Source of the DNA: Neovahlkampfia damariscottae
Taxonomy: Eukaryota; Heterolobosea; Selenaionea; Neovahlkampfiida; Neovahlkampfiidae
Assembly (NCBI GenBank): GCA_016618085.1
Contig: JABLTG010000040.1
Span: forward strand, 54,418-118,417
Reading direction: 5' to 3'
DNA: 64,000 nucleotides
Below are positions 4,301-64,000 of the stretch, piece by piece (position 1 is the first letter of the stretch; the number at the start of each line of letters is the position of its first letter). The notes under the pieces are model-generated. The model was not told where the DNA came from and searched no databases. It saw only the letters and a list, made by a program, of their open reading frames with translations. The translations under genes and the position numbers were made by a program.

Positions 4301-6617
4301 TAAATTTCCACAACCAGTTAATTTACAAAGATTAATTTTAAATGCACAAAAATCATTCAATATTGATTTAACAAAAAAATCAACTTTACATCCAATTGAT
4401 GTTATTCAAAAAGTTAAAGAAAAATGTAAAAAATTAATTATTATCAATGGAGAAGATGCATTATCAAAAGAAGCACAAAAAAATGCAACAATTTTAATAC
4501 ATTGTTTAATTAGATCAGTTTTATCTTCAAAAAGAGTTATTCAAGAATTTAAATTAGATAAACATGCATTTGAATTAGTTTTAGGTGAAATTGAATCAAA
4601 ATTTTTACGTGCACTTGTTACAGCAGGAGAATCAGTTGGTGCATTAGGTGCTCAATCAATTGGAGAACCTGCAACACAAATGACATTAAATACTTTTCAT
4701 TTTGCTGGTGTTGGTTCAAAAAATGTTACACTTGGTGTTCCACGTTTAAAAGAATTAATTAATGTTGCTGCAACAAACAAAACACCTTCTTTAACAATTT
4801 ATTTAGAAGATAATATTAAATTTGATTCTGAAATTGCAGAAAAGAAAATGCCATTTTTATTAGAACATACATTTTTAGGTAAAATGACAGATACATCAAG
4901 TATTTTTTATGATCCAGATCCAGAAAATACATTAATTGAACAAGATGAAGAATTTGTTCAAGAATATTTTGAAATGCCAGGTGTTGAAAAAAATAATTTA
5001 TCACCATGGTTACTTCGTTTAGAAATTAATAGAAAAATGAAAGGAAAAGATATTACAATGGAACAAATTGCAGAAAAAATTGAAAAAGATTTTGATGGAA
5101 TTTTAATTTGTATTCCAACAAATGAAAATGCAAAACAATTAGTTTTACAAATAAGATTAAAAGAAACTGATGAATCAAAAGAATTTTCATTTGCAAATAA
5201 AGGATTAGAATATTTAAGAGCAATTGAAGATCATTTATTAAATAAAATGGAATTAAGAGGTATTCCAGGAATTAAAAAAGTTTCAGTTGATAAAAATAAA
5301 CAAACAAATGAATATGTTTTATTAACTGAAGGAATTAATCTTGAAGAAGTTTTAACTGTTCAAGGTGTTGATTCAAAATATACAACTTCAAATAATATAA
5401 CTGAAATTTATAGAGTTTTAGGTATTGAAGCTTGTAGAGCTGCATTATTAAAAGAACTCAGAAATGTTATTGAATTTGATGGTTCTTATGTTAATTATCG
5501 TCATTTAGCTACTTTATGTGATGTTATGACTCAACGTGGAAGTTTAATGGCTATTACAAGACATGGTGTTGGAAGAGCTGATGCAGGACCTTTAATGAGA
5601 TGTTCATTTGAAGAAACTGTTGAAATTTTAATGGAAGCTGGTATATTTGCAGAACAAGATCCTATTAAAGGTATTTCTGCAAATGTTATGGTTGGTCAAT
5701 TATCTTCAATGGGAACAGGTTGTTTTGATATTGTTTTAGATGAATCAATGTTAAAAAATGCAGTTGATATTCGTTTAGAACCTGTAAATGAATATGATGG
5801 AACAATGTATGGTGGTGATACAGGAACACCTTATCATGAAGCAAATTATCCATATTCACCAATGACACCAGGTACACCTGGAACACCTTATGAATCAGGT
5901 CAATTCTCACCATTGGTATCAAGTCCAGAAAGTGGTTTTAGTCCTTATCAAAAGACACCATTTCAACAAACTTCATTATATTCAAATCAACCAACTTCAC
6001 CTGGTAATTACTCACCTAGTTCACCTGGATATACAAGTCCAATGTATTCACCAGGACCAACAAGTCCTTCAGGTAGTTATTCACCAAGTTCACCTGGTTA
6101 TTCACCAACATCACCTGGTTATTCACCAACAAGTCCTGGATATTCACCTACTTCACCTGGATACTCTCCAACAAGTCCAAGTTATTCACCAACTAGTCCT
6201 TCATATTCACCAACTTCTCCAAGTTATTCACCAACAAGTCCAAGTTATTCACCTACATCACCAAGTTATTCACCAACTAGTCCAAGTTATTCACCAACAA
6301 GTCCAAGTTATTCACCAACTTCACCTTCATATTCACCTACATCACCAAGTTATTCACCAACATCACCTTCATATTCAAATAAAGGTAGTGTAGTAGGAGG
6401 ATCATCTGGAAGTTATTCACCTACATCACCAAGTTATTCACCGACTAGTCCAAGTTACTCACCAACAAGTCCAAGTTACAGTTATTCACCAAGCTCACCA
6501 AGTTATAAAAATGAAAAAGCGGCTAACGAGTTTGCATATTCACCTTCATCACCTTCATATACTCCTTCATCACCAACATATCTCAGTCAAAAACAAGATG
6601 AAGAAGATGAAAAATAA
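1344..6617 (+). CDS. RPB1: RNA polymerase II largest subunit
   Basis: A single uninterrupted frame of 1757 aa. It synthesises mRNA as the catalytic subunit of nuclear Pol II. Visible landmarks: the N-terminal clamp zinc site (CSTCSANMLECSGHFGH, about residue 69), the invariant magnesium-binding loop NADFDGDEMN near residue 490, the bridge-helix/trigger-loop block (GESVGALGAQSIGEPATQMT, near 1095), and a C-terminal domain from about residue 1490 to the end. The CTD has roughly twenty YSPTSPS/YSPTSPG-type heptads, preceded by degenerate repeats and broken once by a glycine/serine linker (NKGSVVGGSSGS). The acidic tail DEEDEK ends the protein. Length and order match canonical Rpb1. It is intronless although most neighbours have introns. 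Confidence 0.99.
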   Translation: MTTTTNTYTFSQAETKKIGKIQFGILSPETIKNMSVVEIIHSEHTERGKAKIGGVLDPHMGSIEPSVSCSTCSANMLECSGHFGHINLAKPMFHISFLNTTVKILQCVCLSCGALLTDKTSHLWEESQRLPPKARLRAVHQLCRGEGECKVEESVDQNQNQEEISEEQPTKTGGFGGCGAFKPSIKREKLKIFAEHKPNQILQDNTERKYELTAEKVLAIFKKIKDEDILAMGFDTLYSRPEWMVLTVLPVPPPCVRPSVAFGTSGRSEDDLTYKISDIMKANKALANQSLNGTAAHQISDQMDLLQFHIATYVDNEIPGQARAEHSSGRPIKSIRQRLKGKDGRIRENLMGKRVDFSARTVITPDPNLSIDQVGVPRSVALNLTFPEIVTPFNIDKMLELIRNGPREHPGAKYVIKEDGGRFNLGIVKKPEDIHLEFGHIVERHIQDGDVILFNRQPSLHKMSMMGHHVKVMPYSTFRLNLSVTSPYNADFDGDEMNLHVPQSLQTKSELLNLMMVSKNIISPQANKPVIGIVQDSLLACSKMTRRDVFLSRDLMMNILMWVKEFDGKIVTPAILKPKVLWTGKQLFSTILPLVNLSRYSSEYEDYTRKKKGEGYAPDYDEDLCPFDTKVIIDRGVVLSGICDTKTLGKAAGGLIHVIMHEWGSEQAKNFIDRIQQIVNNWLITIGFSVGIADTIADEDTMKNIEETIKQAQDNVQTVIKDAQEGKLNVKPGTTFLESFEMEVNYHLNKARDDAGSRAQKSLVRNNIKSMVLAGSKGSYINISQIIACVGQQNVDGKRIPYGFRNRTLPHFTQDDHGPESRGFVANSYLRGLTPQEFFFHSMGGREGLIDTAVKTSETGYIQRRLMKAMEDVTVRYDGTVRDGSGNIIQFLYGEDGMDSTFLEFQTFNTIKMGDEEFDRRYKYKISQHGGMLSGFGKGYLQPEIIEDFKKNPKKLLILQEEYDQLQEDRKFLKHFSKTILKPGETKFPQPVNLQRLILNAQKSFNIDLTKKSTLHPIDVIQKVKEKCKKLIIINGEDALSKEAQKNATILIHCLIRSVLSSKRVIQEFKLDKHAFELVLGEIESKFLRALVTAGESVGALGAQSIGEPATQMTLNTFHFAGVGSKNVTLGVPRLKELINVAATNKTPSLTIYLEDNIKFDSEIAEKKMPFLLEHTFLGKMTDTSSIFYDPDPENTLIEQDEEFVQEYFEMPGVEKNNLSPWLLRLEINRKMKGKDITMEQIAEKIEKDFDGILICIPTNENAKQLVLQIRLKETDESKEFSFANKGLEYLRAIEDHLLNKMELRGIPGIKKVSVDKNKQTNEYVLLTEGINLEEVLTVQGVDSKYTTSNNITEIYRVLGIEACRAALLKELRNVIEFDGSYVNYRHLATLCDVMTQRGSLMAITRHGVGRADAGPLMRCSFEETVEILMEAGIFAEQDPIKGISANVMVGQLSSMGTGCFDIVLDESMLKNAVDIRLEPVNEYDGTMYGGDTGTPYHEANYPYSPMTPGTPGTPYESGQFSPLVSSPESGFSPYQKTPFQQTSLYSNQPTSPGNYSPSSPGYTSPMYSPGPTSPSGSYSPSSPGYSPTSPGYSPTSPGYSPTSPGYSPTSPSYSPTSPSYSPTSPSYSPTSPSYSPTSPSYSPTSPSYSPTSPSYSPTSPSYSPTSPSYSPTSPSYSNKGSVVGGSSGSYSPTSPSYSPTSPSYSPTSPSYSYSPSSPSYKNEKAANEFAYSPSSPSYTPSSPTYLSQKQDEEDEK

Positions 6618-6674
6618 CTTTAATGAATAAAAAAAAAAAAAAAACAAAATAAAAGATTTTTTTTAAAAAAATTT

Positions 6675-7869
6675 TTAACTTTTATAAATTTGAGTTGCAG
6701 TAATACCTTTAACTGCGTAACCTGATTGTGAGTAAATATCAGTTGTTAATTGTGAAACATCTGGTAAAGGTGATTCTGTTGCAAATTGGACAGCTTCTTT
6801 GACTTCTTTTCTGATGTCTAATTCAATTGCTTTTAATTCTTCTTGTGTAGCAACTTTCTTTTCAATTAACTTTTGTTTTAAAAGTTGAATTGGGTCTTTA
6901 TTTGTACGAACATCTTTAACTTCTTCTCTTGTTCTGTAAGATGTACCTGGATCTGACATAGAATGACCATAGTAACGATAACTTGACATATGAAGAATAA
7001 TTGGTCCATTATTAACAGCCCAATCTTTTGCATAACGTGCTGCTGATCTAACTGCCATAACATCCATACCATCAACTAAAATTCCTGGAATATAATCTCC
7101 TCTTGAATAATAATCTTCAGATGCTGAACTTCTTTTTGTTGATGTACCCATACCATATTTATTATCTTCAACAACAAAAACGCATGGTAAATTCCATAAA
7201 GCAGCCATATTGTAACTTTCAAAAACTTGACCTTGATTTGATGCACCATCACCCATATAAGCCCATGAACAATTCTTTTTCTTTTGATATTTTAAAGCAT
7301 ATGCTAAACCAGCACCTACTGGTACTTGAGCACCAACAATACCATTTCCACCCCAAAAATTATTTTTTGCCATATACATATGCATTGAACCTCCTTTTCC
7401 TTTTGCACATCCTGTAGCTTTGCCCATTAATTCGGCTAATACTGATTTTGCTGTATCACCACGAAGAATTTGATGTCCATGGTCTCTATAAGCTGTAATA
7501 CAATGATCTTCATAATTGGATTCAGATTCAATTCCAACTAAAATAGCTTCTTCTCCAGCATATAAATGACAAAATCCTCTGATTTTTCTTTGTTTATATT
7601 CTGTTTCTGAAGCTAATTCAGTTCTACGGACTAATTCCATATAACGGAACATTTTTAAACATTCTTCTTTTGTTGTTACAACTTTATCAGATGGTTCTAA
7701 AAGTTAACAAAGTTTTTTTTTTTTTTTTACTTCCAAATTTTCCTTCAAATTTTTTTGGTGTGTGAATACGGAATTGTTTTTCTGTATCTACTTCAAATGT
7801 GAATTTTTTTTCAGTTGACATTAAACGATAGTTTGTATTTTTTGGTTTTATAACTTTGAGAGTTTTCAT
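6675..7869 (-). CDS. PDHA1: pyruvate dehydrogenase E1 component subunit alpha, mitochondrial
   Basis: Two exons (7869-7731, 7696-6675) with a 34-nt intron starting GTAAAA give 386 aa. E1-alpha binds thiamine diphosphate and decarboxylates pyruvate in the mitochondrial PDH complex. The ThDP motif is visible as MGDGASNQG followed by a conserved asparagine region, and the phosphorylation-loop region reads YRYYGHSMSDPGTSYR. The N-terminus is basic, with RLMST resembling a leader cleavage site. An upstream ATG at 8011 opens a different frame and is not used. A CCAAT box on the coding strand lies 64 bp before the ATG. Its presence argues against an anaerobic organism with only hydrogenosomes. Confidence 0.95.
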
Positions 7870-8172
7870 TTTTTAGTTCAAAATTAAAGTGAGTTTTTGG
7901 TGAAGAAAAAAATCGGTTACAAATTTTCTCTGATTGGTCAATTTTTTTAGCTGAAAGAGCACCAAGATTAACATGCATTAAACTACCAAATATCGCAGTA
8001 GTTTTCATCAATTCAACTATTTTTTCATCACATCTTTTGATTGGATAATTTCTATTGATTTTTCAAATCATTTTATAGTTTTATTATTCATACAGTGTTA
8101 ATTTAAATCCAAATCAAAAAGAATTTAATGATATACTCTCATTTGGATGAATCCCTTTTGCAAGATAACATT
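7870..8172. other. intergenic spacer with two ATTGG boxes
   Basis: About 300 bp between two minus-strand genes. It contains ATTGG at 7933-7937 and another near 8040, both of the type found before starts in this window. A 66-codon frame starting at 8011 runs through it but overlaps the PDH E1-alpha start in another frame and has no recognisable content. Confidence 0.5.
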
Positions 8173-9326
8173 TTATTCATTAACTTCTTCAATTTTAAAT
8201 AAATCAGTATTGATATCAATTTCATTTTTTACAGGGACAACAGGTTCCATAATTAATGATTCCTTTTCCATTTTTTTTTCATCTTTCCATAATTTTGTGA
8301 ATAAAAATAAAATGAAATGAATTGTTCCATAAATAACTAATACAAATGCATATTGCCATATGATACCTAAAACACCAACATCTTTAATTTCACCAATTTG
8401 AATATATTCAACAGATGGATAAATAACCATGAATATAATTGATATAGGAACAACAATAAAATGTGGGAGCATCATTTCTTTAATTGATTCTTTTAAACTA
8501 TTATCTGAGTTTATTGGATACCAATATGAAATTAACCATTTAGTGATGATAAAAAACAATCCTAAAAATACAAATAATCTATAACTCTTAACTGTTGTTT
8601 CATCAAAATCATGTACTAATTGATCTATTTGTTTTTGTGTTATTTTAAATGTTTTATCAATTAAATTTATTGTTAAATCAAAAAATTCATGTCTAAATTT
8701 TTCAGTTTTTTCTTTAATTTTTAACACTTTTTCTTTTGTATCTGATGTTGATATTTTTGATTCTTTTTCAACAAAATTTAAAATATTAGTAATTTCAATT
8801 GCTGTTTTATCCATTATTATTTTCCCTGAATTCTTTACTGTTTCTGATAATCTTTTAACTTGTAATCTCACAACATCAAGTGATTTTTGATGAACATCAT
8901 CAATTAAATTTTGAGTTTTACTTAAAGTATTTTGAAGTTCATCAGTTGCTTCTTTATTTAGATTCTTAACTTTTACTTCTATATTTTTTGTTTGTGATGA
9001 AACAACTTCATGAATTTTTTGTAAAGAAGTTTGAATTTTTTGAAGTGAAGTTGTCTTGATTTTTCCTCTTAAATCATTAACTCTGGCATGTATAGATGCT
9101 AAATTAGCACTTATAGTTTGTGTATAAAAAGAACCAACACCTTTCTGCCATACGTTAAAATTAATTCCATTGACTGATGAGACCCTCATTGATTTGGGTA
9201 TGAATGCTCTTCCAATACTTCTTGTTGCTCTTGAAATAAGTTAGTCAATGATTTTATATACCCTTTTGCTTCATTTGAACCAAATGAAATCAAGACGAAA
9301 AATAAAACAAGCAACCAATTGCTCAT
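8173..9326 (-). CDS. secreted/membrane coiled-coil protein with three C-terminal TM segments (paralogue A)
   Basis: A first exon of 65 bp (9326-9262) encodes a signal peptide (WLLVLFFVLISFGS) and joins through a 32-nt intron (9261-9230, with a TGACTAAC branch-like site) to 9229-8173; total 373 aa. After the signal peptide comes an amphipathic, heptad-like alpha-helical region of about 180 residues. Three hydrophobic segments follow (FVFLGLFFIITKWLIS, FIVVPISIIFMVIYP, YAFVLVIYGTIHFILFLF), then an acidic cytosolic tail. It has the same architecture as the divergent neighbour at 9400 and shares its promoter gap. No family recognised. A helical ectodomain tethered to the membrane is what can be seen; function unknown. 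Confidence 0.75.
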
Positions 9327-9363
9327 CTCTAATCTGGGATTTTGGAAATAAAATGACAATATG

Positions 9364-9368
9364 ATTGG
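9364..9368. promoter_or_regulatory. ATTGG/CCAAT box shared by divergent paralogues
   Basis: The only CCAAT-type element in the 73-bp gap between start codons 9326 (minus) and 9400 (plus): 37 bp from one and 31 bp from the other. One element probably drives both genes. Confidence 0.6.
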
Positions 9369-9399
9369 ATAATAATCAATTTTGGAACATCCGCAACAA

Positions 9400-10794
9400 A
9401 TGAAAAGAGTGCTAGTGCTAATCGTTATTTTTTTACTCTTTCTTAATTGTAAAGCTGAAGAATTTAATACACCAACTTCAACAATGTTATTTTGTAATCT
9501 AACTCAAACTTGTCAGAACTCTCATGTAAACATTTCAGAAATAATTTCAGATTTACTTTTGCCTGGATTAAGACATGAATTTATTTCAAACCATACCTCT
9601 TATTTTTTAGATTTATTTTATAACATCACATTAACACCCCAAGAGGAAAAAACATGGGCAAGAATTACAGAGAAAGTTGAATCTCATCTTATACCTTGGA
9701 TTTATCGAGCTCTTAATGAATCAAATTCAGTTGGTGTTCTTGCTTCAACAAGTGTTAGTAGTATATCAAATATAAATTACAACATGGAAGCAAATATTTT
9801 AGGACCACTCAGAAATGAATTAGTACGTGAATTTCAAAAAGTTACTCAAACTTTTGATGTTACTGAAAATGAAGTTTTAGATTTAATGAATGTTATAACA
9901 CAAAAAGTATTAAATTCAATTACTACAGAAGATGGAAATATCAAACAATCAATTGAACGATTATTAAATGAAGTTAAAACAACTATAAAATCAAATGCTC
10001 AACAGGGATATCAAAAAATACATGAAACATCAATTAAAGTGTCAAATTCTATTTTTGAAGAAGTGAAAACTACTACTGATAAATTGATTATTTTAACTGA
10101 AAATTTACATAAAGATAGTGAAGTATTGATTAGAGATCAAAGAATTAAAAGTGTTGAAATGACATTAAAAGTTAAAGATGATATTAATGCAACAACTGAA
10201 GAAATTTCAAATGAAATGAATTTAATGATTCAAAAAACACAAGAAAAATCAATGAATTTGTTATTACAGTCAATGAATAGATATGAATCTGAAACTAATA
10301 TCATTACACAAAAAATGAAAAAATCATTAAAAAAGAATGGAGATATATTTATGGAAATTGCAATTTCTTGTGTTTGGATTTATTTAATGTTTATGATTTG
10401 TTTTGAAATGTTACCTTCAAAAGATGATTTGAAATCAATGAAGATTAAAATTATTTTAACAAAATTTGTTAGAAGAATATTACAAATTTCACCTTCAAGT
10501 TTTATATTCCCTGGATTGTTTTTATTATTTGAATATAGATTTGAAAATTTAAATCATGTTGGAATTGAAATTAAAATGTATATTGTTACATTATTCATTG
10601 TACAAGTATTGTTTTTTAGTTGTTTATTTCTTATTGCTTTTATTTTTCAATCAATTTATTTATCTATTTTATGGTGGAAAGAAAATAAACCATTGGAATA
10701 TTTAAAAAGTAAAATTGAAAGAATGAATATTTGGGAAAAAAAATATGATACAAATGAAGGAAGATTTGATTATGAAAGTAATGAACATTATTAA
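9400..10794 (+). CDS. secreted/membrane coiled-coil protein with C-terminal TM segments (paralogue B)
   Basis: 464 aa, intronless, taken from the first true ATG. A signal peptide (VLVLIVIFLLFLNCKA) leads into a region rich in N-glycosylation sequons, then about 200 residues of amphipathic helix, and hydrophobic segments near residues 320-420 (CVWIYLMFMICF, SSFIFPGLFLLF, YIVTLFIVQVLFFSCLFLIAF). The order mirrors the divergent neighbour on the minus strand, so the two look like an inverted duplicate pair, although sequence identity is low by eye. A role at the cell surface or in an endomembrane lumen is inferred. No known family recognised. Confidence 0.75.
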   Translation: MKRVLVLIVIFLLFLNCKAEEFNTPTSTMLFCNLTQTCQNSHVNISEIISDLLLPGLRHEFISNHTSYFLDLFYNITLTPQEEKTWARITEKVESHLIPWIYRALNESNSVGVLASTSVSSISNINYNMEANILGPLRNELVREFQKVTQTFDVTENEVLDLMNVITQKVLNSITTEDGNIKQSIERLLNEVKTTIKSNAQQGYQKIHETSIKVSNSIFEEVKTTTDKLIILTENLHKDSEVLIRDQRIKSVEMTLKVKDDINATTEEISNEMNLMIQKTQEKSMNLLLQSMNRYESETNIITQKMKKSLKKNGDIFMEIAISCVWIYLMFMICFEMLPSKDDLKSMKIKIILTKFVRRILQISPSSFIFPGLFLLFEYRFENLNHVGIEIKMYIVTLFIVQVLFFSCLFLIAFIFQSIYLSILWWKENKPLEYLKSKIERMNIWEKKYDTNEGRFDYESNEHY

Positions 10795-16167: not shown

Positions 16168-16286
16168 GCTTACGGCCATACTTAGGAGAATACACCGCAT
16201 CCCGTCCGATTTGCGAAGTTAAGCTCCTACAGGCTCTCCTAGTACTAGGGTGGGAGACCACCTGGGAACCGGGAGTGTTGTAAGCT
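16168..16286 (+). rRNA. 5S ribosomal RNA
   Basis: About 119 nt starting GCTTACGGCCATAC and ending GTGTTGTAAGC, so the 5' and 3' ends pair as helix I. The Pol III internal control region is recognisable (GCGAAGTTAAGC box and GGGTGGGAGACCACC). A T-run right after the 3' end is a Pol III terminator. It is a single copy here, not in a tandem array, and lies between protein-coding genes. Confidence 0.95.
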
Positions 16287-18813: not shown

Positions 18814-18831
18814 GATCGTTTCAACAACCAG

Positions 18832-18904
18832 GGCTGTTTAGCTCAGTTGGCAGAGCATTAGTCTTGTAAACTAAGGGTCATGAGTTCGATTCTCATAACA
18901 GCCT
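18832..18904 (+). tRNA. tRNA-Thr (anticodon TGT), copy 1
   Basis: Full cloverleaf: acceptor GGCTGTT/AACAGCC, D arm with A box TAGCTCAGTTGG, anticodon stem TTAGT/ACTAA with loop CTTGTAA (anticodon TGT, 18865-18867), T arm with B box AGTTCGATTCT. No intron. A run of T follows as Pol III terminator. It is identical to the minus-strand copy at 42678-42750. Confidence 0.97.
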
Positions 18905-19275
18905 ATTTTTTTTTTTGGTTTTCTGAAGAGAAAAAGTCAAGACTTCTTTTTGTTACCATTTCAAGACGTGAGCAAAAAACAATTGAGCATGTCAATTGTC
19001 ATTTGAAGAACTTCAATACATTAAGAAATTGTAAATAAATGGAAGAAGAAAAATTCATTCAAATTGTATTTATTACTGTAATTTTTTTTTTAGATGTTGG
19101 TTGTTCAATTTGGAGTGTAGAGCGAAAGTAAAGCAGTTCTTTCATTGGTCAAGAATTGACCAACTGTCCGATTATATTACTCATTTTCTTTGTGAAAGGC
19201 AATGGCAAATTGAGTAATTTTTTTTAGAAATATTCTCAATGTTTTTTAAGACGAGCAACTTTTTGTGAAATAAAT

Positions 19276-23397: not shown

Positions 23398-25212
23398 TTA
23401 ATATTCAAAAGAAACACCTCCAAATTTTTCTGATAATTCTGTATCATTTTCGGTATCTGTTGCACTTGAAAAACCATCTTCATAAGAACATGAAGAATAA
23501 GTTTCAATGAATGACATTTCACTCCTAAAACTGACACCACTCATTGGACTTCTTCCTCTACTTCCAATACTTTTACTAAATTTATCTTTTGTTGCTAAAT
23601 GACTACTCCAATTTTGAAATAAAGGTTGTATAAATTTAACTGATTTTGGTAATGTATAAGGATCAAATGGATAAAAATCATCAATTAAATCTTTTGATAT
23701 TTGCATTTTAATCTTTGGTGGTGGTTTTATTGCATTCTTAAAAATAATTTTATATTTTTTTTGAAATTCGATTGAAATTTCTTTTGAAACAATCTTAGAA
23801 TGTTAGAAGATGAAAATAAACATACTCTTAATGGATTCAATTGAGAATTACAAACATAAATTAAATCTTCTAAATTCATTTTTTCATCCATTTTAAAACA
23901 AAGAGCATATAATACAGAATTGAAAACTGAATAAAAATGAGGATGATTTTTATATTCAAAATTTCTTGTTTTTTCAATTTCCAAAACGTATAATTTCATC
24001 CATTTTGATAATTTTTCAAAAACTAATTGTGATTTCTTTTGTTTAACAAAATTACTTCTTGCTAAAAAACCACCTAAAAAATTTGAAGCATTCTTTCTAA
24101 TTTGAATATGAACATTTGAATCTAATGTTTTATCAATCAAAAAATCTAAAAATTGTTTTGTATATTCAGTCTTTTTTGAACATAAAAAAAACCAAATAAA
24201 TTGTATAATAGTTGGATTGTATGACATTAATACTTGTTTTACAAAAATAGTCATCAAATTCTTAAATATATTTTCATCAGCATTTTTATCAATAAATTCA
24301 AATATAATCATCATTGTTGTATCTAATTTATCTTTATTATCATTTTGTTGTTGATTTCCACCATTTCCAAGTTCTAATTCAAAAAGAGCATCATCTTCAT
24401 CTTCTTCTTCTTCTTGATCAAAACCATCTTTCAAATGTACCTAAACGATAAGGAAATTAGTCTTCTTTCATTCATTGATCTTACATCAATATTCATAATT
24501 TGTGAAATTATAAAACTCAAGACTTGATTCCTTATCGTAGTACAATATTCTGACAGATATAAAAGATTGGTTATATATTGACAGTATTCATGTGTTCTTT
24601 CATTGATTGGAAATAACCTTTTCACTACATCAAATAAAATTAATGAACATTGTGATATTTTGTTGTTCAAATATTTTAAAAGATTGTGAACATTGTTAAA
24701 TTTAATCTTTGAAAGTTCATCTTTACCGCTCTTGTCAATCATATTTGATGCAAGAACTTGAAGAAATGGAGTTAGGTACGATGGACATCTTGATAAAATA
24801 GATAAAACTAATTTTATATATACATCCATTAAAGAACCTTCTTTTGGTTCAATGTACCACAAATCAACTTTTGGGCTAAAGATGACTTGTAATAACTCTT
24901 TTGTCTCCTCATTGATGAGATAAACGATGGAAGTTAAAACAATATAAACGTCAGATATCTGTGAAGTATTAAGAGCATTGATATTGCTCACTAATTTATT
25001 ATAATTTGTTGGATTTCCCTATTTTGTTTTTTAAAAAAAAAAGTTTTTTTTTTTACGTTTTTTTTTTCTTCAATTGCTTGAATAATCTTTTCTGTCAAGA
25101 TTTTGAGTTTACCTTCTTGACTTTGTTGTATCGTTGTAGTCTTTGGTGTGGTTGATGTTGTAGTACCACTAACTTGATTTCTGTACTTTCTTCTTGGTTG
25201 CATAGTGGACAT
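23398..25212 (-). CDS. RRN3: RNA polymerase I initiation factor RRN3 (TIF-IA)
   Basis: Exons 25212-25057, 25018-24485, 24440-23826 and 23793-23398 (introns 38, 44 and 32 nt) give 566 aa. RRN3 bridges Pol I to the rDNA promoter factors in the nucleolus. Diagnostic parts: an acidic insert (EEEEDEDDALFELELGN), the HEAT-repeat block IRKNASNFLGGFLARSNFV, the YSVFNSVLYALCF helix, SQLNPLRI, and the C-terminal FYPFDPYTLPKSVKFIQPLF, matching the FFPFDPY...SxxFI motif of the family. It is slightly shorter than human RRN3 (651 aa). An ATTGG box lies 37 bp upstream. Confidence 0.93.
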
Positions 25213-25407
25213 AAGTACAAAAAAAAATGGAAGGAATAGATGAACGTGATTGGTTGAATATAATGGTCCAATCATTCTCTTTCAATTTCCGATTGTACTT
25301 TTTTTTATTTTTATTTCTTATTCATTTCAAAAAAGATTAAGAGAAAAAAGAAGCAAAATCTGATTTGTTTAAAACAACCAATCATTCTCGTAGCGCCAAA
25401 ATACTTG

Positions 25408-42592: not shown

Positions 42593-42677
42593 AAATAATT
42601 CTGAAGTCACAAAATATCTTTTTTTAAGAAAAGCAACTGAATCAACTTGAAATAGGTCAAAAAATTGGGGAAAAATT

Positions 42678-42750
42678 AGGCTGTTATGAGAATCGAACTC
42701 ATGACCCTTAGTTTACAAGACTAATGCTCTGCCAACTGAGCTAAACAGCC
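42678..42750 (-). tRNA. tRNA-Thr (anticodon TGT), copy 2
   Basis: Minus-strand copy identical over 73 nt to 18832-18904, with the same anticodon loop and no intron. The 3' flank is not similar to that of copy 1 apart from a T-rich terminator; the 5' flank shares one 23-bp element. Confidence 0.97.
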
Positions 42751-42768
42751 CTCGTTGCAACCTTAATT

Positions 42769-60766: not shown

Positions 60767-61274
60767 TAATTTTTGAGCCAATCATTTCACAATTCAAAAA
60801 ATAAAAATGAAAATGATCCCTAAACGTCACTATTTTTAGGCATAAGTTCATTTTCAATTTTTTGGAGTAGTAGAGGTGAAAGGTCCGGACGACGATTAAA
60901 CTTTTTTTAATTTTCAACCCCCAAGGAAGTAAAAAAAGACCATTTTCGCGGATTTTTCATTTTTTTCGACCAAATCCCCCGACACACCCAGAACCTTTTT
61001 CTTGCCGTCTCACGCCTCAACTCGGCGGTTTTTTGTCATTTGAAAATTTTATTCACCTTCTTACTTTTTGTTATCCATAATTTTTCATTTTGGTTCTGTT
61101 AATTTGTTGGTCCATTATATTGCCATTTGGTTGGACCAATTTTATGGCAAATAAAAAGTACGAATTTTGAACCTTCATTGACAAGATTGAAACTTTCAAT
61201 TTGAAGGTTTGAAACGATTTGATTGGATTGTCGGAATTCAAAGTTTTTATAAATTGATTCCCTTGCTTTTTTGA
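60767..61274. other. spacer with a GC-rich, possibly structured segment
   Basis: 508 bp. Promoter elements for both flanking genes are at the edges. The middle, about 60830-61040, is much richer in G and C than the surroundings; see the ncRNA candidate. No protein gene is supported. Confidence 0.5.
60835..61040 (+). ncRNA. candidate structured non-coding RNA (strand uncertain)
   Basis: A 200-bp island of GC-rich sequence in an AT-rich gap: GTCCGGAC (perfect palindrome) with a preceding GAGGTGAAAG, a C-run, and a stem (GCCG ... CGGC) followed by TTTTTT near 61036. GAAAGGTCCGGAC resembles the CR-I segment of RNase P/MRP RNA. An internal T7 run near 60910 argues against one Pol III transcript across the whole region. 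Weak, by-eye evidence. Confidence 0.25.
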
Positions 61275-62535
61275 ATGATTCAACAAAACCAAATGGACAC
61301 AAGACAAGTTTTACTCTCAAGCTTTTGATCCACTTTTATGCTTTGAGTATATTCAAAATTCAATTGACAACATCAACAAATTCACAACTGAAGCAAGTGA
61401 TATAGTTTCTGAACTTTGCAAAGAAATTGAAAAAGAAAAGCTAAAGCCATACGAGAAGCTAAACAAACTTGCCAATCGATTAAGAGAAAATGAGGAACTA
61501 AAATATTATTTTGAACATTTAAATAATTCCACAGAAAAACAAAATGAAAAATGGAAATTAGAGCAAAATATTATCAACTTGAAAAAGAATATTGAAGACC
61601 AAGAATCCAAAAAAAAAAGTAATTCAAATTATTACAATGAAGCTCTTCATACAATAGAGGCAGATAATTTATCAGCGTCAGAACAAAAATTAAAGGAAAT
61701 TGTTATTCCTAAACCAACAATAAACATACAAGATGCAGGAAATTTTTTATTAGAATGGCAGAAAGAATCTGACAAGGTCAACCAAAATCAAAGAACCATA
61801 ATCCCAAGAAACAGTCCTTTGGATTACCTAAAAAACCCACAAAAACATCTTTCTTTCAGTTTGAATGATGACTCAAATTCAAAAAAAGATTTAAATACTT
61901 TACAAAAAAATATTTCATTCTTACCTTCAAAAGAAATCAAGTACAATAAAACATCTGAATACCAAAATGGATTAAATCAACAGAATCTTAAAACTCAAGA
62001 AATTCAAATAAAAATGACACTCTTGAATATTAAACTTTATGTAATTGACGTTATCAGAACTGAATTGACAATAAAAAAAGGAATTGAAATGGAAAAAAAA
62101 CTTCAAAAACTAGAAAAAGAAAATGAAGAATTGAAAAAATTGTTTACTGTTTGTGAAATCAGAAAAAGATTAGAAGATGTTGTTTGGGGTATAATAGAAG
62201 ACTTGGGTCATGAAGGATCAGCAACTGGCATATTGGAAGAACTGTCCGATCCTTCCAATGCTTTGTGGGATGATATTGATCCAGATAAAAAGGTTTCCAA
62301 GAGAATCAGAAAAATTGTTCGTGAATTATATCCACAACTTTCAAATAAAATCCATAATGTTCAAAATCATGGATTTGATCAAAATGAACCTTTAAAAGTT
62401 TCTCGCGAGCATATCGGGGACAATACAGAAAGATTGGAAGCTTTAAAAATACTTTTTGAGTATTATAAAGCTGATGAATCTTGTTATCTGGTAAATGGAG
62501 ATGAAACCCTAATGAAAGATATAATATTTGAATAA
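61275..62535 (+). CDS. unrecognised coiled-coil protein, 406 aa
   Basis: A 33-bp first exon (61275-61307) joins via a 40-nt intron to 61348-62535. The region to residue 200 is a charged coiled coil with an asparagine-rich stretch; residues about 270-390 form a helical acidic domain (RLEDVVWGIIEDLGHEG, LWDDIDPDKKVSKRIRKIV). An ATTGG box lies about 48 bp upstream. It is the last gene of host type before the virus-like segment. No family recognised. Confidence 0.6.
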
Positions 62536-62700
62536 AATTTATTTTTGCTTCAAGAATTACGATGTACAGAGCATATCGTAAATGCTACAGAAATTTTTAC
62601 AAAGAAGTACATATTATTTGGAGAAAACTATTTATTGAAACTATTTATTGATTCTTTTCCATGAAATTTAAGGTGGTTTATATGCTTTTGTTCCATGATA
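62536..62700. other. junction between host-type and virus-like sequence
   Basis: 165 bp in which the CCAAT boxes and long A/T runs of the host region stop. A short direct repeat (ACTATTTATTGA, twice near 62625-62650) is present. No gene. Confidence 0.35.
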
Positions 62701-62958
62701 TTATTGATTTTTTTCAATGAAATTAAGGATTTTATCAATTTGTTCATTTTGCTCATTCATTTTTAATTGATGTTCAGAAGTTGTTTTTTTAATTTCCTCA
62801 TGTATTTGGGAAGGTGATAACTCAAGGTTTGAGCCACAACAACTAGATTTTTCTATTCTTTTGCTAAATTCAACAACTCCGATAACAATAGGCGAAATTA
62901 ATGATGTAATTAAACCCGCTGAAGTTATTACGATTAATATTGTCAGTTCGACTGTCAT
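62701..62958 (-). CDS. small single-pass membrane protein of virus-like type
   Basis: 85 aa. One N-terminal membrane segment (TILIVITSAGLITSLISPIVIGVV), a short basic loop with a CCG dipeptide pair (SSCCGSNLEL), then a charged helix. It has no intron and no CCAAT box; an AATATATATG-like AT-rich stretch precedes the ATG, as for the packaging ATPase. Small proteins of this layout are frequent in large DNA viruses of protists, but I cannot name a homologue. Confidence 0.5.
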   Translation of the reverse strand: MTVELTILIVITSAGLITSLISPIVIGVVEFSKRIEKSSCCGSNLELSPSQIHEEIKKTTSEHQLKMNEQNEQIDKILNFIEKNQ

Positions 62959-63017
62959 ATATATTATAATGTGATTTTAATTGAAAATCATTTTCTTTAT
63001 ATAGATTGTTATTAATA

Positions 63018-63105
63018 TCAAACGTTGGTGTAATAGGGAACACGCTAATATGAAAGCTGATCAATTCATATCAGAGATCTTGGTTCGAATCTTGGACAAA
63101 TGACA
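63018..63105 (+). tRNA. tRNA-like remnant
   Basis: An A-box-like TGGTGTAATAGGG with a perfect 4-bp D stem (GTGT/ACAC) and a B-box-like GGTTCGAATCT about 40 nt later. The anticodon arm and acceptor do not close into a normal cloverleaf (only four of seven acceptor pairs). It may be a decayed tRNA gene, a tRNA with a short intron, or chance. Confidence 0.25.
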
Positions 63106-63243
63106 TTTAACCCTTAATAAAATATATAGACAAGTTATGATTATCCTAGGTTGAGATTGTTTGTAAAAATCATAAAGTTTATTATATTATTATTATGTAG
63201 ATTTTATTTATCTATATAATAAGAAAGATATAAATAATACCTT

Positions 63244-63316
63244 TCTTACCATAGTATAATGGCAGTGCAGTTGGCTGTAACCCAATTAGTGATGGTTCGA
63301 TTCCATCTGGTGAGAT
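63244..63316 (+). tRNA. tRNA-Tyr (anticodon GTA), intronless
   Basis: Acceptor TCTTACC/GGTGAGA pairs over 7 bp (one wobble), D arm with a 3-bp stem, anticodon stem GTTGG/CCAAT with loop CTGTAAC (anticodon GTA, 63277-63279), T arm GATGG/CCATC with a perfect GGTTCGATTCC B box. The short variable loop is eukaryote/archaeal-like, not bacterial. It lacks the anticodon-loop intron found in almost all nuclear tRNA-Tyr genes. Confidence 0.85.
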
Positions 63317-63347
63317 AACTAATTAATATAGTTTTAATTAAACAATA

Positions 63348-63989
63348 TTAATATTTAATTTTAATCATTTTGTATTTTTCTGGCACTTTTTCAATGTGAT
63401 ATTTTTGGTCATCATCTTCTAATACATCTACAATAATAAAATTATAGTTTTGGGTGTTATCAATTATGAATTTTTTAACATCTTTAATTGTCTTATCATT
63501 CATAAAATTATCTTGAATTGATTTAAATGTATTTTCTTTTGTTTGTTTAAAAGTAATAAAATATGTTGCACATTCCCTTATGGTTGTTGGTATTTTGTGG
63601 ATGTATTGAGTTGTAAATATTAATGTAAAATTTGGATGTCTATATGTTGATGTCAATCTGCTCATTATTTTACTTTGAAAATTTATTGAACCGATACAAT
63701 CGTCAAAAATGATAAATGCAGGTTCAGCTTTTTTATTTTTCTTTTGTTGTGCAATTTGAATATTGTAAAATTTAATCAATGTGTTTTCATTATATTTTGA
63801 ATGGACAAACTCATTGGGTAAAAAATCATATGCTCCAGTAAATTTGGTTGGGCAAAATACAAGTCCATATTTTACTTTCTTTTTCTTAAACATTTCATTT
63901 AACAAATATTTTATCAAATATGTTTTTCCACTCTTTGGAGGAGCACAAATTATTGATATGTAAGGGGTATCATTTATTAACTGTTCCAT
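63348..63989 (-). CDS. viral A32-type DNA-packaging ATPase
   Basis: 213 aa. Walker A CAPPKSGKTYL near residue 16, Walker B PAFIIFDDCIG near 95, and the arginine-finger/sensor region LTSTYRHPNFTLIFTTQYIH, with the FxxTQY sequence typical of A32-like ATPases of nucleocytoplasmic large DNA viruses, Polintons and related elements. These pack the genome into capsids. Short length fits Polinton-like, virophage or small-NCLDV versions. No intron, no CCAAT box; an AT-rich stretch precedes the ATG. The start is 11 bp from the window edge, so neighbouring viral genes probably lie to the right. Confidence 0.88.
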   Translation of the reverse strand: MEQLINDTPYISIICAPPKSGKTYLIKYLLNEMFKKKKVKYGLVFCPTKFTGAYDFLPNEFVHSKYNENTLIKFYNIQIAQQKKNKKAEPAFIIFDDCIGSINFQSKIMSRLTSTYRHPNFTLIFTTQYIHKIPTTIRECATYFITFKQTKENTFKSIQDNFMNDKTIKDVKKFIIDNTQNYNFIIVDVLEDDDQKYHIEKVPEKYKMIKIKY

Positions 63990-64000
63990 TTTAATATATT

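Follow-up and report, generated by a model that had tools for sequence, protein, structure and literature searches.

The window analysed here, the final 64,000 bases of the 118,417-bp contig C242 from the Neovahlkampfia damariscottae genome (20.4 Mb, 307 contigs), ends within viral DNA. With a probability of roughly 0.9, its positions 60866-64000 hold the left end of a Tlr1-type Polinton-like virus (PLV) that has integrated into the host genome, i.e., of the type that encodes an rve integrase and a fusion of a protein-primed DNA polymerase with an SF1 helicase, and this element is cut by the contig end. It is one of a large multicopy provirus family in this genome and not a chimera. PLVs are known and widespread in protists (PMC10120064). 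A preliminary description of the DNA had proposed a viral or virus-derived segment starting at position 62536 and had considered an integrated PLV, a virophage-like element, a piece of a nucleocytoplasmic large DNA virus and a mis-joined contig. The first of these options is borne out by the terminal inverted repeats, 6-bp duplications, integrase, polymerase-helicase fusion and capsid protein found in copies of the family.

The left terminus of the element was located at position 60866, the sharp outer end of a terminal repeat of about 365 bp (60866-61230, plus strand), which was delimited by genome matches and by exact termini found with a pattern and begins with AGTAGTAG. Across the family, terminal inverted repeats with this start measure approximately 300-365 bp. 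A search of the genome with window positions 60800-61300 yielded at least 43 matches, a lower bound since 40 of 66 candidates were scored, and 40 of the 42 non-self matches start at window positions 60862-60866. A 21-base degenerate pattern for the repeat terminus occurs 57 times genome-wide, compared with a single occurrence of the reversed control. Inward-facing pairs of the repeat end are present on seven contigs, all of which were tested for a flanking 6-bp match. Exact target-site duplications (6/6) were found for three of the seven pairs, namely those on C47 (span 13,338 bp), C268 (8,475 bp) and C29 (7,148 bp). Flanks matched at five of six positions on C258 (860 bp) and C11 (4,343 bp) and at one of six on C280 (21,542 bp) and C266 (618 bp), while the best among 42 mismatched left-right flank combinations, which served as a control, was 4/6. 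Because the repeat end is recurrent and flanks are duplicated, an inserted element has its terminus at position 60866, and its family generates 6-bp duplications. The host hexamer TTTTGG directly outside (60860-60865) is the expected left copy of the target-site duplication, placed on the basis of the duplications of other copies. No shift in GC content is visible at the junction of host and element.

These data also bear on the possibility that viral or contaminant DNA was wrongly joined to the host sequence at 62.5 kb. Such a mis-join would be in line with the contig ending within the element and with the position of many matches near contig ends, where assemblies often break. However, the junction at 60866 coincides exactly with the outer end of a repeat whose terminus occurs 57 times in the genome, embedded in different flanks, the exact 6-bp duplications of three of the seven repeat pairs are not producible by assembly error, and open reading frames (ORFs) inside the repeats bear a host-type CCAAT box. 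A mis-joined contig is thus extremely improbable.

The segment of the preliminary description is therefore real and integrated, but its start was placed 1.67 kb too far to the right, the true start being 60866, where the repeat matches begin (60862-60866). The ORF between 61.28 and 62.54 kb had been taken as a host gene. This coiled-coil-rich cargo ORF (61279-62535, plus strand, 418 codons) lies inside the element, and a 54% identical relative with two stops adjoins the same repeat on C157 (2331-3170). The late start coordinate was probably chosen because the cargo gene carries a host-like promoter box, an ATTGG (CCAAT-type) box at 61222-61226 (plus strand), and so resembles host DNA. An element end at about 62.7 kb, where similarity between copies ceases just past the membrane-protein gene, was considered and dropped, because both the terminal repeat starting at 60866 and the relative of the cargo ORF on C157 place the end 1.8 kb further left. 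Very short repeat-bounded stretches were observed on C258 (33904-34763, 860 bp) and C266 (1740-2357, 618 bp); they are possibly non-autonomous derivatives, and the one on C258 retains an integrase fragment.

Inward from the repeat, the window contains the cargo ORF, the gene for an 85-amino-acid membrane-type protein, a tRNA-like remnant, a tRNA-Tyr gene and the gene for an A32-type ATPase, after which the contig ends. The right half of this copy is unassembled, and its content was deduced from collinear copies elsewhere in the genome. The intact genome-packaging ATPase (63348-63989, minus strand, 213 amino acids) matches Pox_A32 (PF04665) with an E value of 6.3e-12 and 45.9 bits, well above the cut-off of 22.8, so that its earlier identification as a viral A32 packaging ATPase stands. 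There are 37 ATPase-matching stretches in the genome (this count and those for the capsid protein and the fusion include several pieces of single genes). The small membrane-type protein (62701-62958, minus strand), likewise a core gene product and correctly called virus-like, was found again adjoining ATPase copies. Capture of a single ATPase gene was considered and set aside, since neighbouring genes and repeats recur as well. In the collinear copies, the core continues beyond the ATPase with genes for a double-jelly-roll capsid protein, a DUF5901 protein (241 amino acids, next to the capsid gene; PF19254, E 1.3e-7), which is a candidate for the minor capsid (penton-like) protein, and a spike-like protein; integrase and polymerase-helicase fusion are encoded further in on C280. 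The capsid fold has its nearest neighbours in giant-virus capsids and is closer to those than to Sputnik or mavirus.

The C280 integrase (269 amino acids) matches the rve family PF00665 with an E value of 2.1e-7 and 31.5 bits, slightly under the curated cut-off of 32.6. The genome contains 36 stretches matching it, none of which lies within the assembled part of the window copy. The fusion protein encoded on C280 comprises 1336 amino acids and carries the SF1 helicase domain C-terminal to the polymerase palm (PF01443, E 1.9e-7; PF01443/AAA_19 at residues 909-1019). When residues 250-890 were modelled, all eight PDB hits with E values below 0.001 were phi29 DNA polymerase, an enzyme of the protein-primed type. 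In an alignment of nine fusion sequences, a protease-type cysteine is present in all seven rows that cover it and a histidine in all nine, and the first aspartate of motif C is replaced in all nine. This pattern fits the published 'Tlr1-like helicases', which combine an OTU-like protease, a palm domain with altered motif C, an SF1 helicase and a C-terminal GIY-YIG or HNH domain (PMC11071308). At the C-terminus of the fusion studied here, an HNH motif was read by eye and accompanied by a weak Endonuclease_7 match (E 0.036). With 35 of 91 candidates scored, at least 41 stretches in the genome match the fusion. Fusions on C7, C26, C78, C133, C223, C270 and C274 (95233-98112) are 42-58% identical to that of C280, with frames open over the main match; judged by this divergence, several distinct element lineages appear to share the genome. 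The fusion also has a relative (23% identity, E 2.7e-24) among the proteins of a metagenome-assembled genome assigned to Candidatus Pacebacteria; this protein may stem from a mis-binned PLV. No maturation protease was recognised among the ORFs scanned, a scan that covered part of the ORFs. Capsid protein, integrase, polymerase and terminal inverted repeats, named in the preliminary description as features to look for in an extended contig, are all present in copies elsewhere, although no single copy among those examined unites the full set with matching flanks.

In principle, the window segment could also be a fragment derived from a giant virus (Nucleocytoviricota) or a mriyavirus that had integrated. 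Elements bounded by repeats span only 0.6 to 21.5 kb, however, the rve integrase and polymerase-SF1 helicase fusion of C280 form a Polinton-like module and not a giant-virus one, and capsid folds resembling those of giant viruses have been reported for Polintons and PLVs (PMC10120064). An origin from either group is accordingly very unlikely. Mriyaviruses are not known to encode a DNA polymerase. They share a small genome, a packaging ATPase and a giant-virus-like capsid fold with the family described here, but have a size of 35-45 kb, an HUH endonuclease (at which no search was aimed here) and VLTF genes (PMC11253617). In the family, the repeat-bounded spans are those given above, and C280 carries the protein-primed polymerase.

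Among known systems, Tlr1 of Tetrahymena thermophila and the PLVs with 'Tlr1-like helicases' share with the family the rve integrase, the packaging ATPase and capsid proteins as well as the large fusion of a protein-primed palm lacking the first motif-C aspartate with a C-terminal SF1 helicase, and probably also the OTU-like protease and homing-endonuclease domain of that fusion (PMC11071308, PMC4642659). The family differs in its C-terminal HNH motif, read by eye, instead of GIY-YIG, both of which are published for such fusions, in its tRNA genes and in a cargo zone with host-type boxes; Tlr1 was compared by its description only. OmPLV of Oxyrrhis marina is likewise a multicopy endogenous PLV with terminal inverted repeats, an A32 ATPase, an SF1 helicase-pPolB fusion and a giant-virus-related capsid, and a published capsid tree joins it with Tlr1 (PMC12721341). 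In OmPLV, however, the helicase is N-terminal to the polymerase, a tyrosine recombinase is encoded and target-site duplications are lacking (PMC12721341), whereas the family in N. damariscottae has the polymerase N-terminal, an rve integrase and 6-bp duplications. The rve-encoding PLVs of cryptophytes share the integrase with short target-site duplications and occasional tRNA genes; they differ in that their tRNAs are those for Leu, His and Arg, in HNH units fused N-terminally to helicases and in the restriction of Tlr1-kind GIY-YIG fusions to a small subset (n=16) (PMC12220804). Polinton/Maverick transposons have the protein-primed polymerase, rve integrase, terminal inverted repeats, 6-bp duplications, ATPase and capsid protein in common with the family (PMC4642659, PMC12220804), which differs by fusion of the polymerase to an SF1 helicase and by the maturation protease not recognised in the ORFs scanned.

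Several observations weigh against the assignment to an integrated Tlr1-type PLV. In C280, the fullest copy read, the flanks match at one of six positions and the repeats are 86.5% alike. C47, with its exact duplication, has no integrase hit between the repeats and its fusion is in two pieces; no match is listed for the first 482 residues (35 of 91 candidates scored). As C280 and C47 are each incomplete, none of the copies examined combines all features. The structural model of the polymerase is also a modest one (pLDDT 66.8, TM scores of 0.32-0.35 in the top eight hits). The cargo ORF of the window is without a clear start codon, its first in-frame ATG being located only at 62014, and yields no Pfam match above a cut-off; an unusual start, an unseen exon or decay are possible reasons for the late ATG. 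Finally, a second relative of this ORF (32% identity) resides on C90, a contig without a listed repeat end, and may be a host paralogue.

On C280 (L013:1-3092 and 5543-9900), two elements lie tail to tail with their membrane-protein ends about 2.4 kb apart and one repeat end found between them, an arrangement that may explain the missing duplication. The 26-kb contig C139 carries ATPase copies in opposite orientation at both ends (1386-2018 and 24635-25267), and several ORFs inward of the first look non-viral by eye.

The state of the copies varies. A length of at least 200 of the 213 ATPase residues is covered without a stop in ten of 37 stretches, seven of 33 capsid stretches cover at least 395 of 404 residues, and three of 41 fusion stretches are near full length and open when compared with the C280 query. 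The repeats of a pair are 92.6% identical in C47, 87.1% in C268, 86.5% in C280, 81.3% in C258 and, over 46 bp, 84.8% in C11, while the repeat ends of C29 are identical across the 62 bp compared and flanked by an exact duplication. Since these values differ, insertions of different age seem to be present. One could argue that every copy is a fossil and that ORFs are intact only by an accident of age, given that many matches are broken or partial and that repeat pairs are 81-93% alike in C47, C268, C258 and C280 (85% over 46 bp in C11). Against such a decayed family stand the open fusion frames on C274 and C167, which share 93% and 90% identity with the C280 frame, the identical repeat ends and exact duplication of C29, and an ATPase in a public collection that is 93% identical, though possibly from the same species. 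We consider general decay rather unlikely.

The genes between repeat and core vary from copy to copy. C280 carries a caspase (PF00656, E 6e-12), C211 a NUDIX protein (E 6.3e-10) and C47 an LRAT-domain protein together with a SAM-domain protein. The C47 genes belong to the element because the repeats that enclose them have an exact 6-bp duplication at their outer flanks. The only other match to the caspase, a 36-residue piece at C274:263347, adjoins the C274 repeat end at 262947, so the caspase gene moves with the elements. A further candidate NUDIX protein in C282 was rejected: its motif was seen by eye only, it matched no Pfam family and the comparison with the C211 protein was weak (E 0.021).

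Cargo and core also differ in the motifs ahead of their genes. Of 27 core genes, 19 have TATAT or ATATA within 25 nt upstream of the ATG; the same holds for none of 18 host ORFs (ATG ORFs of at least 250 amino acids from window positions 1-60800) and for 5.5% of random positions. CCAAT or ATTGG is present within 80 nt upstream of the start in 11 of the 18 host ORFs and three of the 27 core genes (random positions, 24%), and in nine of the 11 ORFs in the terminal zone that reach 100 amino acids (Fisher p 6e-5 versus core). Note that the core genes were hand-chosen from four copies (window, C211, C158 and C280) and include homologues, so that p values are too small. This systematic set of 11, in which the window ORF is counted from its internal ATG and one ORF has both motifs, replaced a first hand-picked cargo set with CCAAT in seven of seven. 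The counts agree with the earlier remark that the viral genes lack CCAAT boxes and have AT-rich starts; as far as motifs can tell, the cargo looks host-promoted and the core does not. A CCAAT/ATTGG box near the start is, in addition, a simple promoter signal for gene finding in the host genome.

The AT-rich start motif, common to the core genes and absent from the 18 host ORFs, would also suit a virophage-like satellite, i.e., the same provirus, the core genes of which would stay off until a giant virus infects the same cell and transcribes them with a polymerase that recognises the TATAT-type motif. In keeping with this, none of the ORFs scanned was recognised as an RNA polymerase gene, and a giant-virus-dependent PLV is known (PMC10120064). 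Yet no giant virus of the host is known here, host TATA-binding machinery would explain the motif equally well, and the capsid is nearer to giant-virus capsids than to those of Sputnik or mavirus. The virophage-like option of the preliminary description is accordingly less likely, and dependence on a giant virus is a possibility that we regard as doubtful.

For the integrated Tlr1-type PLV, the following life cycle can be envisaged. Linear DNA delivered by the virion would be inserted by the rve integrase via a 6-bp staggered cut. The fusion would replicate the genome by protein priming, its putative OTU-like domain freeing the terminal protein, and capsid, penton-like and ATPase proteins would package the genome. 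Core genes would be driven by their own TATA-rich start motif. The cargo genes near the repeats (caspase, NUDIX, LRAT, SAM, coiled coil) bear the host's CCAAT-type box, so that the host probably transcribes them during the silent phase of the provirus. We tentatively propose two expression programmes on this basis: a silent core driven by TATA-type promoters of its own, and a zone of exchangeable cargo on host CCAAT-type promoters that would be expressed in the integrated state and could possibly act against competing viruses through defence or cell death, much as cargo genes do in bacterial prophages. If a silent provirus indeed expresses its cargo, it would parallel, in a eukaryote, the accessory genes carried by prophages. 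Endogenous PLVs may form an inducible antiviral layer in protists. The family is unusually legible in this respect, because repeats and target-site duplications mark its ends and promoter type differs between core and cargo. At the level of titles and abstracts, no literature on PLV cargo under CCAAT-type promoters was found, which is not a claim of absence.

The tRNA-Tyr gene of the window (63244-63316, plus strand, anticodon GTA) scores 58.3 bits and is without an intron, exactly as previously described. The tRNA-like remnant at 63019-63103 (plus strand) is less certain: at 21.6 bits it stays under the gathering score of 29, but the same score recurs in the C280 copy. Sequence similar to the window spacer with tRNA-Tyr is present only on C242, C280, C257 and C87, all of them element copies, although a divergent host tRNA-Tyr would escape detection. 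The tRNA-Tyr gene is thus found in four copies, and in two of these, C280 and C87, ARAGORN analysis of 19 loci (the C257 stretch was left out) placed tRNA-Phe next to it; the window has tRNA-Tyr alone. The element-borne tRNAs probably supplement translation of viral genes. Tyrosine codon demand was rejected as an explanation, the sample of 12 viral and 12 host ORFs being too small (4.8% of 4535 versus 3.6% of 5623 codons). PLV tRNAs are known but rare, with ten ARAGORN hits in 1107 cryptophyte elements (PMC12220804), and neither the Tyr/Phe pair nor the core/cargo promoter split was found described in the portion of the PLV literature covered.

Relatives are rare in the collections searched, and the capsid lineage is sparsely sampled. 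A search of about 5.8 billion proteins, in which the 7995 candidates sharing most words were scored, detected at least 12 relatives of the capsid protein. For the ATPase, nine relatives were detected, one of them 93% identical and possibly from the same species. Pattern-plus-tblastn scans, in which only pattern-sharing relatives are visible, gave 56 matches for the capsid protein in IMG/VR and 16 in GTDB contigs and 86 for the ATPase in IMG/VR, none of which was confirmed. Window positions 62536-64000 matched no phage record in blastn, and the capsid profile gave a single chance-level hit against PDB sequences. The large subunit of the host's RNA polymerase II scored best in PDB against mammalian chains and next against those of fission yeast, no more than a hint as to the host's affinities. 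Elsewhere in the window, two tRNA-Thr (TGT) genes with the same Rfam score of 72.1 bits are located at 18831-18905 and 42677-42751, and a lone 5S rRNA gene at 16168-16286.
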